This document shows, in pieces, positions 2,323 to 16,624 of a stretch of 64,000 nucleotides of DNA (the stretch's first letter is position 1; each line of letters starts with the position of its first letter). Source of the stretch: Chloroflexota bacterium (GTDB taxonomy: Bacteria; Chloroflexota; UBA11872); contig JAPOVQ010000030.1 of the NCBI GenBank assembly GCA_026708035.1, positions 1 to 64,000 of the forward strand, written 5' to 3'. The position numbers and the translations under genes are program-made. The notes under the pieces are model-generated. The model did not search any database, was not told the DNA's origin, and saw only the letters and a program-made list of their open reading frames with translations.

Positions 2323-3099
2323 TCAGATCGGTACCTCGGTGATGCACAGCCCGTCGTCGTTCACGTCCACCACCAGGAATCCCTGTTGGGCGTTGGCGTG
2401 CGGATTGGATTGATCCGGGCCGAGGGTTATCCAGGTCGATGGCGCCGTTTCGCTCCGAATGCCATTCACCGTGTCGCTCGTGCGCCGATGCACGTGACCC
2501 GAGAAGACGCCCAGCACGCGGTCGTGGCGCTCCAGGACGGCCATGAGAGCGGCAGCATTTGTCAGCATCACGCGGTCCAGCCAATCGATGCCAATTGGAT
2601 GGCAATGGTGATGGACGAACAGCACGGCTGACTCACCGCTACGGGCGTCCAACGTGCCATCGAGCCAGGCGAGTTGCTCGGCGCCCAGACGCCCCCCGAC
2701 GGCGCCGCCAACAGGGTTGGAATTGAGCACCACCAGCAGCACCCCGCCGCGGACGAGCGCGTAGTAGCCGCCGGGCGCTCCCGCGGGCTCGACGTCATTC
2801 GGGAGCGCGAGCGCGTCGGCCAGCATCCTGCCGTCGTCGTGATTTCCCTGCACGAAGAGTTGCGGCATGGCTACGTCATGCGTGATGCGCACGAATTCGG
2901 CATAGGCCGCCGGGCTGGACGTGCTCGTCTGGTCGCCCAGATGCACGACGAGCTGCGGCGCCGGACGAACGCCGGCCAGCGCGCGAACCGCCGCTTTCAA
3001 ATTCTCGCGTGCGTCCGCGCCATGCTGCGGCGGGGCGCCGGGCGAGATCATGTGGGCGTCGCTGAGGATGGCGAAGCGCAGGTTGGGCGACTGAGCTAT
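2323..3099 (-). CDS. calcineurin-like metallophosphoesterase, apparent ATA start
   Basis: The protein (about 258 residues) carries the full metallophosphoesterase signature: SDAH (Asp14, His16), HLGDQ (Asp56), GNHDD (about 85-89), a His-rich HHHCHP loop and GHVHRR near the C-terminus. It would bind two metals and hydrolyse phosphoesters; the substrate is unknown. Homology begins about 5 residues after the stop of the upstream DUF3105 gene. No ATG, GTG or TTG lies between that stop and the SDAH motif. The only canonical alternative is a TTG at 3186, 90 bp inside the upstream gene, behind a poor ribosome binding site. An ATA at 3099-3097 overlaps the upstream TAG and sits 7 nt after GGAGG, so it is taken as the start. 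Confidence 0.8.
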   Translation of the reverse strand: MAQSPNLRFAILSDAHMISPGAPPQHGADARENLKAAVRALAGVRPAPQLVVHLGDQTSTSSPAAYAEFVRITHDVAMPQLFVQGNHDDGRMLADALALPNDVEPAGAPGGYYALVRGGVLLVVLNSNPVGGAVGGRLGAEQLAWLDGTLDARSGESAVLFVHHHCHPIGIDWLDRVMLTNAAALMAVLERHDRVLGVFSGHVHRRTSDTVNGIRSETAPSTWITLGPDQSNPHANAQQGFLVVDVNDDGLCITEVPI

Positions 3100-3722
3100 G
3101 GCGCGGCCTCCGGTCCACGGTCCACGAAGTCGCGGTAGAACTCGCGCACGCGGTCGGGATCGAGGCTGTCCATCGGCTCCTGCCAATGCCAGGCCACCAG
3201 CATGAACTTGGGCGCCAGTCCCGCATACGGCATCGCGATCAGCTTCACCTCGCCGAATGCCCCGTTGGGAAGGTCCTGATGAATGGCCTCCAGCTGCGGC
3301 ACCACCTCGTCACAGTCGGTGTCACAGCGATACAGCACCGCAATGGCCCCGTGCTCCAGGTTGTGCACCCACAGACCTTCCTCGACCGGCTCTTCGTAGA
3401 CCCCGTAGGGCGCGCCGATGGGGTAGTGGGTTCCTGACGCCGGGGGAACGTTGGCGTACTCAATGGGCGTCCCCACGGGGACGTGCAGGCGGCCTTCGTC
3501 GTCGATCCGGACGCGCCGGGCGGCAACTTCGGCGGACGGCGTGTTTGAAACGATCAAGAGAACGATCAGCGCGGCGACGCCGCCCACCGCGAGCAACACG
3601 CCGCTGCCAATCAGCGAGCGCCGCAGCCAGCGGCGACGTCGCGCGATGCGCTGCCGCTCTTGACGCGCCTCCCGGCGACGTTCGAGTTTGACCGCCGCCC
3701 TGGACCCGCGTCGCCTCGCCAC
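3096..3722 (-). CDS. DUF3105 membrane-anchored protein
   Basis: The 208-residue protein has a very basic cytoplasmic N-terminus (Arg/Lys-rich, residues 1-35), one membrane helix (about 36-58) and an extracytoplasmic domain. That domain contains the DUF3105 hallmarks PPASGTHYP, GVYEEPV and VHNLEHGAIAVLY. The conserved histidines in these motifs suggest a metal or ligand site, but the function of the family is unknown. Two cysteines (RCDTDCDE) lie close together and could form a disulphide. It is the first gene of a two-gene unit with the phosphoesterase. The ATG at 3722 gives a normal length for the family. Confidence 0.85.
   Translation of the reverse strand: MARRRGSRAAVKLERRREARQERQRIARRRRWLRRSLIGSGVLLAVGGVAALIVLLIVSNTPSAEVAARRVRIDDEGRLHVPVGTPIEYANVPPASGTHYPIGAPYGVYEEPVEEGLWVHNLEHGAIAVLYRCDTDCDEVVPQLEAIHQDLPNGAFGEVKLIAMPYAGLAPKFMLVAWHWQEPMDSLDPDRVREFYRDFVDRGPEAAP
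3097..3111 (-). promoter_or_regulatory. Shine-Dalgarno plus ATA start overlapping TAG stop
   Basis: Reading the minus strand, GGAGG (3111-3107) is followed by 7 nt and then ATAG: ATA (3099-3097) is the proposed start of the phosphoesterase and TAG (3098-3096) is the stop of the DUF3105 gene. The arrangement mirrors the ATGA overlaps used elsewhere in the window. Confidence 0.55.
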
Positions 3723-8500: not shown

Positions 8501-8659
8501 GCTGGGCAATCTCCTTGTCTGGCACGAGAGCAGGCGTTTCCTGGGTCGATTCTAGTGCGATGACATCGCGACCGGCCTTCGGCCCGACCGAGAATTGACG
8601 GGAAAGCGCACGGGAAACGCCGCCCGCGCGGGTAGAATGCCGCACAGTCGACCGGTTTC

Positions 8660-9868
8660 GTGGGTCGCCGAGCCCACGCGCGCGTGAACTACCTGCGTCT
8701 GCGGACGATCCTGTTCGTTCTGGGGATCGTTGTCGCCAGCATTTGGCTCTTGCAGTTTCTTTGGGGACTTGTCGGGAACTTCGCGGCCTTGGTCGTGACG
8801 CTGCTGCTGGCCTGGATCATCAACCTCATCGCGCTGGAGCCCGTGCGATTCATGCGCCGCTTCCGGATACCACGGTTGCTGGCAGCCACCATCGTCTATC
8901 TCGTGATCGCCGGTATCACCGCCCTTTCCGCCTTTTTCATCCTGCCGCCGCTGTTCGCCGAAATCGGCCGGGCCGCCGGAAACCTGACGGCGGGCGCCGC
9001 GAATGCCACGCAAATCCTTGAGAACCTGCGCGCGCAGCTGCTGCAATGGGGCGTGCCCCAGGACACCGTGACCGAGGTGGTCACCGGCTTCAATGCACAG
9101 ATCATCACGCTCGGTCAGGACATCGCCGCCGGAATCTTGGCGTCGACGGGAGCCGTGCTCGGCGGGCTCGGTCTGGCCATCCTCACCTTGATCATTTCGT
9201 TCTACATCCTGCTGGGATGGGATATGAACCTGCAGCGGCTGCGCCGCGAATTGCCCGCCGAGTGGCGCGCGCGATTCGACCGCGGCATTCGCTCCGCCGA
9301 GCGCACGTTCGGCGGCTGGCTCGGCGGCCAGGCCGTGGCGTCGACCATCTGGGGCGGCGCGGTGGTCCTGATCTTCTTCATCGCCGACATGCCGTTCGGC
9401 CTACTGGTTGCCGTTGCCACGGGCTTGCTCATGTTCATCCCGTTCGTTGGCCTCGCGGCCGGCATCGGACTCCCTATCGTGATGGCCCTAACCATTCGCG
9501 TCGATCTGGCGATCTGGGTTGGCATCAGCGTGGCCGTGCTCTCGCTCGTCATCGAGAACATCGTCAAGCCGCGGGTCATGGGCACCGCCCTCGGGGTCAA
9601 TCCGCTGATCGTGATTCTGAGCGTGATCATTGGCGGGGTAGCGGCCGGATTCTGGGGCATCGTGTTCGGCATTCCGATCGGCGCCCTAATCTGGACGTTC
9701 CTGCGCTGGGGCGCCCTCGAGGTGCTCCACGCGCAAGCCCGCCTGCATGAGCACCCGGACGAGCCGGCGCCGCAGCCAGCCGCGGCGCCGGCGGAGGAAG
9801 CCGACGGTGCCAACGGCGCCACGCTGCCCGAAGAGGCCAAAGAGCCTTCGCAAGGGGTTCGCGCATAA
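8660..9868 (+). CDS. AI-2E / PerM family transporter
   Basis: The 402-residue protein has about eight hydrophobic segments arranged as in the AI-2E transporter (UPF0118/PerM) family. A first pair lies at residues 12-60, a pore-like pair in the middle (GLGLAILTLIISFYILLGWD), and a C-terminal cluster with LLMFIPFVGLAAGIGLPIVM and the conserved ENIVKPRVMGTALGVNPLIV motif. Members export signalling molecules or ions; substrates are usually unknown. The tail after about residue 365 is Pro/Ala/Glu-rich and probably cytoplasmic. The start is GTG at 8660 or GTG at 8684; neither has a good ribosome binding site. Its stop overlaps the proposed start of the next gene. Confidence 0.88.
   Translation: MGRRAHARVNYLRLRTILFVLGIVVASIWLLQFLWGLVGNFAALVVTLLLAWIINLIALEPVRFMRRFRIPRLLAATIVYLVIAGITALSAFFILPPLFAEIGRAAGNLTAGAANATQILENLRAQLLQWGVPQDTVTEVVTGFNAQIITLGQDIAAGILASTGAVLGGLGLAILTLIISFYILLGWDMNLQRLRRELPAEWRARFDRGIRSAERTFGGWLGGQAVASTIWGGAVVLIFFIADMPFGLLVAVATGLLMFIPFVGLAAGIGLPIVMALTIRVDLAIWVGISVAVLSLVIENIVKPRVMGTALGVNPLIVILSVIIGGVAAGFWGIVFGIPIGALIWTFLRWGALEVLHAQARLHEHPDEPAPQPAAAPAEEADGANGATLPEEAKEPSQGVRA
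9852..9868 (+). promoter_or_regulatory. Shine-Dalgarno plus ATA start overlapping TAA stop
   Basis: AAGGGG (9852-9857) is followed by 7 nt and ATAA: ATA (9865-9867) is the proposed start of the ABC exporter subunit, and TAA (9866-9868) ends the PerM gene. The next in-frame NTG codon is the ATG at 9934, 23 codons later and inside the conserved first segment. Confidence 0.5.
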
Positions 9869-11637
9869 GGTCGCTCGTCCGGATTCTCAAATATGTCCGG
9901 CCGCATTGGCGTTGGGCGCTGCTGTCGCTCGCCATGTGGGGCGTCGCCACCGCCATGGACCTGCTGATACCGCAGGTCATCGCGCGCGTCATCGACGAGG
10001 GCATTGGGGCCGGCGACCGGACGCGCCTCGCCGCGCTGGTGGGCCTGACCGCCGCGCTCATCTTCGTGCGCGGCGCCGGGTTCTTTTTCACCCGTATGAC
10101 CATGCGGGTGTACGAAACGCGGGTGGCGTCCCGCATGCGCCTCGACTTCTACGCGCACCTGCAGCGCCTGCCGTTCAGCTACTACGACCGCGTGGACAGC
10201 GGCGACATCATTACCCGGGCCGTCAGCGACCTTAACCGCGCCCGGATGTTCGCCGGCGTGGGTGTGACCGAGACGGTGCGCATTCTCGGGCTATACGTCG
10301 CGATCATCGTGGGCATGGCCGTCACCAGCGCCACGCTCACGCTGATGATCGTTCCCGTGCTTGTGGTCTTGGCGGGCATGTCCATTTGGTACGGGAGCGT
10401 GGTGCGACCCATGTGGCAGCGCATCCAGCAGCAGCAAGCCGCCCTGACCCGGGTACTGTCGGAAAACCTGAACGGCGTGCGGGTGGTGAAGGCGTTCGCC
10501 AAGGAGCACGCAGAAATTGAAGCCTTCGACCGCTCGGCCAGCGACCTGTTCGACCTTTCCATGCGTCCCGCGCAGCTTCGCGCGCGGCTGATGCCCGCCA
10601 TGCTGGCCGTCGCCGGCATTGGCACGGTCATCGTGCTCGGCGTCGGCGGACGAATGGCGCTCGAAGGCGCCGTCTCCGTGGGCGTGCTGGTGGCGTTCTA
10701 CTACTACTTCGCCCGGCTGATTCCGCCCACGCAGCAGCTGGGATTCGTGGTGCAGCGCATTGCCATCGCCATCGCGTCGGGGGGACGCGTCTTCGAGCTG
10801 CTGGATGAGCCCGTGCGTATTGCCTCGCCGCCAAACGGTCACGCGCCGGACCGGGTGGACGGCCGGGTTGAGCTTGACGGCGTGAATCTGTCCTACGGCC
10901 GCCGGGAGCCAGTGCTGCGCGAAGTCAACGCCGAAGTTTCGGCAGGCTCGGTCATAGGAATCGTGGGGCCCACAGGGTCCGGCAAGAGCAGTCTGGTCCA
11001 GCTCATTCCGCGTTACTACGACGCGACCGCGGGCACGGTGCGGCTCGACGGCGTCGACGTGCGCCAATTCGACCTGGCGACCCTGCGGCGACACGTGGCC
11101 ATCGTCCCGCAGGACGCCATGCTGTTCTCGGACACCGTCCGAAACAATATCGCCTATGGCGATCCCGGGGCGGACACCGATCGCATCGTCGCCGCCGCGC
11201 GCGACGCCCAAGCGCTTGACTTCATCGAAGACCTGCCCGAGGGATTCGAAACCGTCGTCGGGGAGCGCGGCGTGGGACTCAGCGGCGGCCAACGGCAGCG
11301 GGTGACCATCGCCCGTGCGCTGCTCACCGAGGCGCCGGTGCTGATTCTCGACGATGCGACGGCCAGCGTGGACACGGAGACCGAACGCCGCATCCAGGAA
11401 GCCCTGCGGGCGCGGGCGCGCGGGCGCACCACGTTCGTCATTTCCCAGCGCGTCAGCTCCGTCCAAGGCGCCGACCGGATTCTCGTCATCGAGGACGGCC
11501 GCGTGACCGACCACGGCACGCACGACGAGCTGGCCGCCCGCCCGGGCTTCTATCACGACCTTGTGCAGCGGCAGCGTCACTCCGCAATCAATTCCCAAAG
11601 CTCCGGGCGCGCAGCCGCCCTTCCGGACGAGAGGTAG
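9865..11637 (+). CDS. ABC exporter half-transporter, degenerate-site subunit
   Basis: The protein (about 590 residues) has six membrane helices and a nucleotide-binding domain of the MsbA/BmrC type. Walker A GPTGSGKSS is at about 368, the signature LSGGQRQR at 472, and Walker B LILDD at 493-497. The usual catalytic Glu is Asp497, and the switch His is Gln528 (VISQRV). This is the pattern of the degenerate partner in heterodimeric exporters. The first NTG start (ATG 9934) would delete about 23 residues that look native (LVRILKYVRPHWRWALL), so the ATA at 9865 with AAGGGG 7 nt before it is preferred. It is paired with the next gene, 4 bp downstream. Likely cargo is lipids or drugs. Confidence 0.88.
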   Translation: MRSLVRILKYVRPHWRWALLSLAMWGVATAMDLLIPQVIARVIDEGIGAGDRTRLAALVGLTAALIFVRGAGFFFTRMTMRVYETRVASRMRLDFYAHLQRLPFSYYDRVDSGDIITRAVSDLNRARMFAGVGVTETVRILGLYVAIIVGMAVTSATLTLMIVPVLVVLAGMSIWYGSVVRPMWQRIQQQQAALTRVLSENLNGVRVVKAFAKEHAEIEAFDRSASDLFDLSMRPAQLRARLMPAMLAVAGIGTVIVLGVGGRMALEGAVSVGVLVAFYYYFARLIPPTQQLGFVVQRIAIAIASGGRVFELLDEPVRIASPPNGHAPDRVDGRVELDGVNLSYGRREPVLREVNAEVSAGSVIGIVGPTGSGKSSLVQLIPRYYDATAGTVRLDGVDVRQFDLATLRRHVAIVPQDAMLFSDTVRNNIAYGDPGADTDRIVAAARDAQALDFIEDLPEGFETVVGERGVGLSGGQRQRVTIARALLTEAPVLILDDATASVDTETERRIQEALRARARGRTTFVISQRVSSVQGADRILVIEDGRVTDHGTHDELAARPGFYHDLVQRQRHSAINSQSSGRAAALPDER

Positions 11638-16050: not shown

Positions 16051-16611
16051 CTAGGCTCGCCCGCTCGGCGCCATGATCACGCTGAGCACCCGGCCGTCCT
16101 GCTCGGGCATGATGTCCCGCTCGACCACCCCGCTATCGGCCAGCGTCTGCTTGACGCGTTCGAGAATTCGGACCCCGAACTCGGGATGAATGCGTTCGCG
16201 AGCGCGAAACCGAACCGTGGCCTTCACTTTGTTCCCATCTTTGAGAAAGCGTTCTAGTCGGCGGATGAGGAATTCCAAATCGTGCTCACGAGTGGCCGGA
16301 CGAAATCGAACTTCCTTGACCGTGCCGGCCTTTTGGCGCTTCTTGCCTTCACCCTGCTTGCGTGTTTGGTGGTATTTGAATTTGCCGTAGTCAAGGATCT
16401 TCGTGACCGGCGGACGGGCGTCCGGCGAAACTTCCACCAAGTCGAGCCCACGCCCCCGCGCCACTGCCAGGGCTTGCTCTGTCGGAACTATTCCGATCTG
16501 CTGACCGTCTTCGTCAATCAAGCGAACTTCGCGGATCCGGATCTCATCGTTGACCCGGGGGCCCTTGGGTCGGGTCCGCTGTTCCGCAAATCGATGGTGG
16601 GGGGCTCGCAG
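16051..16611 (-). CDS. infC: translation initiation factor IF-3
   Basis: IF-3 binds the 30S subunit, keeps it free of 50S and proofreads start codons. The 186-residue product has the N-terminal domain (RVNDEIRIREVRLIDEDGQ, in part), the basic linker with ILDYGKFKYHQTRKQ, and the C-terminal domain ending VIMAPSGRA. The frame opens with TTG (16617-16615) directly abutting AAGGAG (16623-16618), which is too close for initiation. CTG two codons later (16611-16609) sits at the ideal 6-nt spacing. infC is known for non-canonical, IF-3-sensitive start codons, so CTG is chosen. It is followed by aspS rather than rpmI-rplT. Confidence 0.93.
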   Translation of the reverse strand: MRAPHHRFAEQRTRPKGPRVNDEIRIREVRLIDEDGQQIGIVPTEQALAVARGRGLDLVEVSPDARPPVTKILDYGKFKYHQTRKQGEGKKRQKAGTVKEVRFRPATREHDLEFLIRRLERFLKDGNKVKATVRFRARERIHPEFGVRILERVKQTLADSGVVERDIMPEQDGRVLSVIMAPSGRA

Positions 16612-16624
16612 AGACAACTCCTTG
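16609..16624 (-). promoter_or_regulatory. infC ribosome binding site with CTG start
   Basis: AAGGAG (16623-16618), then TTGTCT, then CTG (16611-16609). The strong Shine-Dalgarno with a weak start codon is the layout expected for autogenous control by IF-3. Confidence 0.5.

Follow-up and report, generated by a model that had tools for sequence, protein, structure and literature searches.

Initiation at AUA codons is normally discriminated against by IF3, and in Escherichia coli infC the start codon is AUU. Natural AUA starts were identified by Ribo-Ret in the Staphylococcus aureus genes infC, ccpN, and citZ, where initiation in the tested reporters is ~10 to 30% of that at AUG (PMC13009471). 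A different set of studies has dealt with overlapping genes: post-termination ribosomes reinitiate at the common ATGA overlap (PMC6728339), and the four-base overlap has been described as (A/G/T)TGA (PMC3887535), since TGA is the sole stop codon able to share bases with an NTG start. Both near-cognate initiation and four-base overlaps are thus known, while an AUA start inside a TAA or TAG stop is new. From sequence comparison, at least two genes of a Chloroflexota family, encoding a metallophosphoesterase (MPE) and an ABC exporter, appear to begin with this very rare start codon inside the stop codon of the preceding gene.

Both junctions have the geometry of a four-base overlap, in which stop and start share bases in the −4 register on the same strand (ATAG at 3099-3096 and ATAA at 9865-9868). 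They share with ATGA, GTGA, and TTGA overlaps the register, the overlap length, a Shine-Dalgarno (SD) sequence within the upstream gene, and the co-directional gene pair (PMC6728339, PMC3887535), but fall outside the published definition (PMC3887535) and would be missed by surveys of ATG, GTG, and TTG. As the overlap word is ATAG or ATAA and not ATGA, GTGA, or TTGA, they are a variant of that class rather than members of it. With the S. aureus genes they would have in common a natural AUA start, SD contact, and probably weak initiation, and the AUA of ccpN is likewise conserved, whereas the S. aureus genes have SDs that are extended and are described without a stop/start overlap (PMC13009471). 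Near-cognate and IF3-sensitive starts also characterize infC (AUA in S. aureus, PMC13009471; apparently CTG in all six species of the genus studied here), but infC is an autoregulatory case, and neither the MPE nor the ABC exporter shows evidence of such logic.

The window, that is, the whole 64-kb stretch of DNA analyzed, belongs to a draft assembly, and all organisms compared are Chloroflexota metagenome-assembled genomes (MAGs). The MPE junction was compared among six species of one genus, the window's species (G000) and its congeners G001 to G005; comparison of the window with the syntenic stretches of the five congeners was the route to the ABC-exporter case. Features are listed in the table.

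Table. Features of the two candidate AUA junctions in the window
Feature	Position	Strand	Remarks
DUF3105 gene, upstream of MPE	3096..3722	minus	GTG start, TAG stop 3098-3096; PF11303 E=3e-28
GGAGG, Shine-Dalgarno-like	3111-3107	minus	7-nt spacer CCGCGCC at 3106-3100
Proposed ATA start of MPE	3099-3097	minus	overlaps DUF3105 TAG (3098-3096) as ATAG, 3099-3096; kept in G000, G004, G005
MPE coding sequence read from ATA	2323..3099	minus	258 aa, class III cyclic-nucleotide-phosphodiesterase-like; PF00149 (Metallophos) E=2e-11 / PF12850
CTG, near-cognate rival start	3081-3079	minus	replaced by GTG in two congeners and by CTC in G004
TTG, only canonical upstream candidate, rejected	3186-3184	minus	in-frame TGA downstream in G004, G005
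AI-2E family transporter frame (stop-to-stop), upstream partner	8636..9868	plus	TAA 9866-9868; PF01594 E=6e-49
AAGGGG, Shine-Dalgarno-like	9852..9857	plus	7-nt spacer; 6/6 in genus
ATA start of ABC exporter	9865..9867	plus	overlaps upstream TAA as ATAA; ATA in 19/19 family genomes
ABC exporter coding sequence from second ATA start	9865..11637	plus	590 aa; PF00664 + PF00005

A first-pass annotation of the window had noticed, on the minus strand, a GGAGG followed after 7 nt by ATAG, and had placed DUF3105 upstream and a metallophosphoesterase downstream of it. The motif is indeed present at 3111-3096, where the strand reads ...GGACC GGAGG CCGCGCC ATAG CTCAGTCGCCCAACCTGCGCTTCGCC..., and Pfam assigns the two proteins in the same way (PF11303 and PF00149, the MPE scoring above the gathering threshold for the latter). 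It had also stated that the interval from the DUF3105 stop to the first metal motif is free of ATG, GTG, and TTG, which is correct, the first in-frame ATG being the codon directly after the D-x-H motif.

The DUF3105-MPE pair (2323-3722) was found in the window's genus only, and all five congeners of G000 have it. DUF3105 orthologues of the sister genus share the C-terminus ...GPE(x)AP* and end at the same position; their stop is TGA in 11 of 12, and none is followed by an MPE gene. The homology of the two stops means that the TAG position is genuine and that DUF3105 has not been truncated by an error, and the distribution of the pair places the gain or loss of the MPE gene near the split of the two genera. 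The SD-like site is GGAGG in two of the ATA-bearing species and GAGG in the third, and is absent from the species with GTG starts. A matching anti-SD, CCTCC, stands at the 16S end in four congeners, the 16S ending GGATCACCTCCTTTCT. The GGAGG is nevertheless less telling than it looks, and weighs somewhat against the AUA reading, because it is also plain DUF3105 coding sequence (Pro-Glu-Ala).

In the MPE, the calcineurin-like motifs (DxH, GD, GNHD, H, GHxH) are all present, with SDAH, LGDQ, GNHDD, HHHCHP, and GHVH invariant among the six species, and dN/dS is 0.21 to 0.40 for all pairs of species, which is purifying selection. Its best sequence relatives are the class III phosphodiesterases of the CpdA/Rv0805/GpdQ type (NF008359, E=6.7e-31; PDB 2dxl and 2hy1), but with 107.8 bits it stays below the cut-off of 225 for the CpdA equivalog NF008359 (3′,5′-cAMP phosphodiesterase). 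Downstream of the MPE gene, at 1395-2242 on the same strand, lie two overlapping small genes, the GTG start at 1844 being inside the end of the previous frame, which by eye look like an antitoxin/PIN-toxin pair.

Alignment of the orthologous junctions, which had been proposed as a check, gave CCATAGCTC in both G000 and G004, CCATAGACG in G005, CCTTAGTGC in G002, CCGTAGTGC in G001, and CCGTAGGGC in G003. The ATA is conserved in three of the six species (G000, G004, and G005), which form one clade with a support of 1.0. The other three start in the ordinary way with GTG, at a distance of a few codons from the ATA position: in G002 and G001 a GTG shares the G of the TAG (TAGTG), and in G001 and G003 a GTG replaces the CTG ahead of CGC TTC. 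Conservation of the GGAGG, which was to be examined alongside, extends to two ATA species and, as GAGG, to the third, while the GTG-start species lack it. The position of the MPE start is mobile, given that the nearest relatives lacking the ATA start at a GTG only a few codons away. Among 10 comparable A-ending fourfold codons of DUF3105, 4 are kept in all three ATA species, the codon at the ATA junction among them, so that a conserved A across three related species proves little and is not significant. The MPE case therefore rests on the exclusion of alternatives, together with the purifying selection on the gene.

The most serious alternative start is the near-cognate CTG six codons downstream of the ATA in G000 and G005, which the first-pass annotation had overlooked although it was right that TTG 3186 is the sole canonical option upstream. 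Initiation at the CTG would give MRFAILSDAH, a product whose MRFAILSD is a typical MPE N-terminus, and two congeners may start with GTG at this very position (GTG CGC TTC in G001 and G003; CTG CGC TTC in G000, G005, and G002). However, in G004 the codon is CTC and no CTG occurs upstream of it, which leaves the ATA as the sole near-cognate codon of this species before an ATC inside beta-strand 1, no SD stands at a proper spacing ahead of the CTG in G000, and the ABC-exporter start described below would go unexplained; we therefore consider this start unlikely. The TTG at 3186, with an overlap that we count as 91 nt (90 bp in the first-pass annotation), is the sole nearby upstream in-frame ATG, GTG, or TTG in the window's species. 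Orthologues starting at its equivalent would have spoken against the ATA, but G004 and G005 carry an in-frame TGA between the TTG position and the junction, followed by no ATG, GTG, or TTG up to the metal motif, so that a start of this type is impossible in these two species. The stretch in question is moreover constrained by the DUF3105 frame and bears no sign of MPE coding, making the TTG a very improbable start.

Other explanations would dispense with an MPE start altogether. A DUF3105-MPE fusion produced by −1 ribosomal frameshifting before the TAG would fit the −1 register that is constant in all six species, but a slippery heptamer is missing at GCGCCATAG, GTG starts lie immediately beyond the stop in congeners, and the sister-genus DUF3105 ends at the same residue with no MPE behind it; in addition, the basic and hydrophobic N-terminal segment of DUF3105 is typical of a membrane anchor, while the MPE looks soluble. 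We regard such a fusion as highly unlikely, and hold the same view of the idea that the MPE gene has lost its start by mutation and is untranslated in the ATA clade: canonical starts are missing in that clade only, yet within it dN/dS is 0.21 to 0.32 and the 258-codon frame is intact in each species. The chance that the base is wrong and the true start is ATG is negligible. The assembly is a draft and the congeners are MAGs, but three separate species' assemblies have identical bases here, the ATAG of G004 and G005 thus excluding a base error, and ATGG would, as had been anticipated, destroy the stop, extending DUF3105 past the C-terminus that is conserved in the sister genus.

The second gene of the window with a proposed ATA start is the stronger and, as judged from the aligned genomes, far more conserved AUA case. 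The AI-2E gene ends in GCATAA, and the conserved reading of the ABC exporter begins at the ATA of this ATAA. In the 19 available genomes of the family the junction word is ATAA in 17 and ATAG in 2 (G006 and G016), and an AI-2E gene is likewise the upstream partner in three second-genus genomes (G007, G006, and G016). No canonical codon exists between the upstream in-frame stop and codon +14 in any of the 18 genomes scored, and by eye the remaining one (G012) is the same. In the six species of the window's genus the exporter frame opens 35 to 39 codons upstream without ATG, GTG, or TTG; in almost every member of the second genus, just 5 to 12 codons separate the preceding in-frame stop from the ATA. 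The ATA residue aligns without gaps with the ATG (initiator Met) of G022, G034, and G037, with the TTG of G021, and with the CTG of G020. An ancestral ATGA overlap, suggested by the word ATGA in G022, G034, and G037, was rejected, as the frames that end there have 16 to 19 codons and are not AI-2E; the outgroups consequently fix the column of the exporter start but not a path from ATGA to ATAA.

The terminal codon of the AI-2E gene varies by lineage (GCA, CCA, or TCA) and always ends in A, although A-ending codons make up only 6 to 8% of those codon families. Out of the 19 A-ending fourfold codons of the G000 AI-2E gene, the terminal one alone is A-ending in all 17 genomes compared, which is what selection acting on the first AUA base would produce. 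The exporters of the two genera are only ~54 to 60% identical, and a start kept in all 19 available family genomes looks like real biology missed by standard gene finders rather than sequencing error. With this second example in one window, it becomes credible that the lineage initiates at AUA in stop/start overlaps.

Systematic screening for missing starts was based on junctions and covered ~1 Mb of G000 together with portions of the five congeners; a screen for conserved blocks was too noisy. In the ~1 Mb of G000 we counted 57 ATGA, 61 GTGA, and 10 TTGA junctions, which by construction of the count never occur without a nearby canonical start, while 4 of 14 ATAA/ATAG junctions do. These four are the MPE, the ABC exporter, and two unconvincing sites. 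The other ATAA/ATAG sites seen in the screens were dismissed, mostly because of a normal ATG 13 to 19 codons downstream.

The translation machinery looks ordinary. No tRNA with the anticodon UAU (TAT) was called among the 53 best-scoring of the 55 tRNA hits (4 of these 53 gave no ARAGORN call), and the main initiator tRNA, read by eye, combines a CAT anticodon with a 1:72 mismatch and three G-C pairs. Altered decoding was accordingly dismissed as a cause of the ATA starts. A second initiator-like tRNA(CAT) gene (L097:98-172, minus strand, equal to G000:C26:28721-28795) lacks the three anticodon-stem G-C pairs and is possibly degenerate; it occurs in the window's species only, which excludes it as the cause of the conserved ATA.

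Several further genes have apparent or candidate near-cognate starts. The infC gene (IF3) has an apparent CTG start at 16611-16609 on the minus strand of the window, within a site (16609-16623) whose AAGGAG-N6-CTG is invariant in all six species; an in-frame TTG/ATG abutting the SD is not conserved. The lysS gene lacks a canonical start in four species (G005, L169:4570-4590, and its orthologues in G001, G002, and G003), and a constant ATC, whose A also belongs to the stop codon of the gene before it (TGATC/TAATC), suggests initiation at AUC in an overlap of one base. Candidates in G000 only are plsX (GGAGG-N7-CTG, L253:10511-10550), uppS (a CTGA overlap, L242:7743), and a gene that is ProA-like by eye (GAGGAGG-N5-ATC, G000:C6, ~8.4 kb from the end of the C6 stretch examined, minus strand). 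The likely start of uvrC (window ~8500, minus strand) is GTG in five species and CTG in G005.

We consider coupled termination-reinitiation at an AUA in a four-base overlap, an AUA-based equivalent of the ATGA arrangement, to be the probable mode of initiation (a probability of roughly 0.77) for the MPE of G000, G004, and G005 and for the ABC exporter family-wide. The first-pass annotation had already proposed an AUA start in a coupled stop/start for the MPE, and the ATA in three species and the exporter in 19 of 19 genomes argue in its favor. The MPE gene would follow DUF3105 as second cistron of the pair and start at the AUA within AUAG. A ribosome terminated at the UAG would be held by contact of GGAGG with the anti-SD, move back one base, and reinitiate on the AUA with the initiator tRNA, this codon being AUG but for its third base and the register that of the common AUGA overlap. 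We infer that the AUA is read with fMet, by reinitiation in preference to de novo binding, and with low output; because AUA is weak, MPE output is probably low and tied to the translation of DUF3105. The same arrangement, as AUAA or AUAG, would serve the ABC exporter behind AI-2E throughout the family. It may have arisen from ATGA by a single G-to-A change, turning TGA to TAA and AUG to AUA together; in ATAG, mutating back to ATG in one step would destroy the stop, and this may stabilize the arrangement.

The odds seem to us evenly balanced that AUAA/AUAG overlaps are a stable and selectively maintained class of coupling junction in this family, derived from ATGA when the stop became TAA by one transition or by loss of a start beside TAA/TAG. 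They would then belong to a broader near-cognate usage (CUG for infC, AUC for lysS, and the CUG candidates plsX and uppS), and any such junctions elsewhere would be overlooked by ATG/GTG/TTG surveys. As a rule, gene finders and overlap surveys consider no start codons other than ATG, GTG, and TTG, and for this reason a start hidden in a TAA or TAG is invisible to them and its gene is dropped, truncated, or wrongly extended. Such starts have a simple possible origin, since a change of the stop in an ATGA overlap alters both codons in one mutation. Whether the coupling of termination and reinitiation relaxes start-codon selection thereby becomes a testable question. The retention of an AUA start in both genera suggests that an ordinary transport gene can rely on near-cognate initiation normally and over long periods, and that such initiation is more than a regulatory peculiarity of infC.
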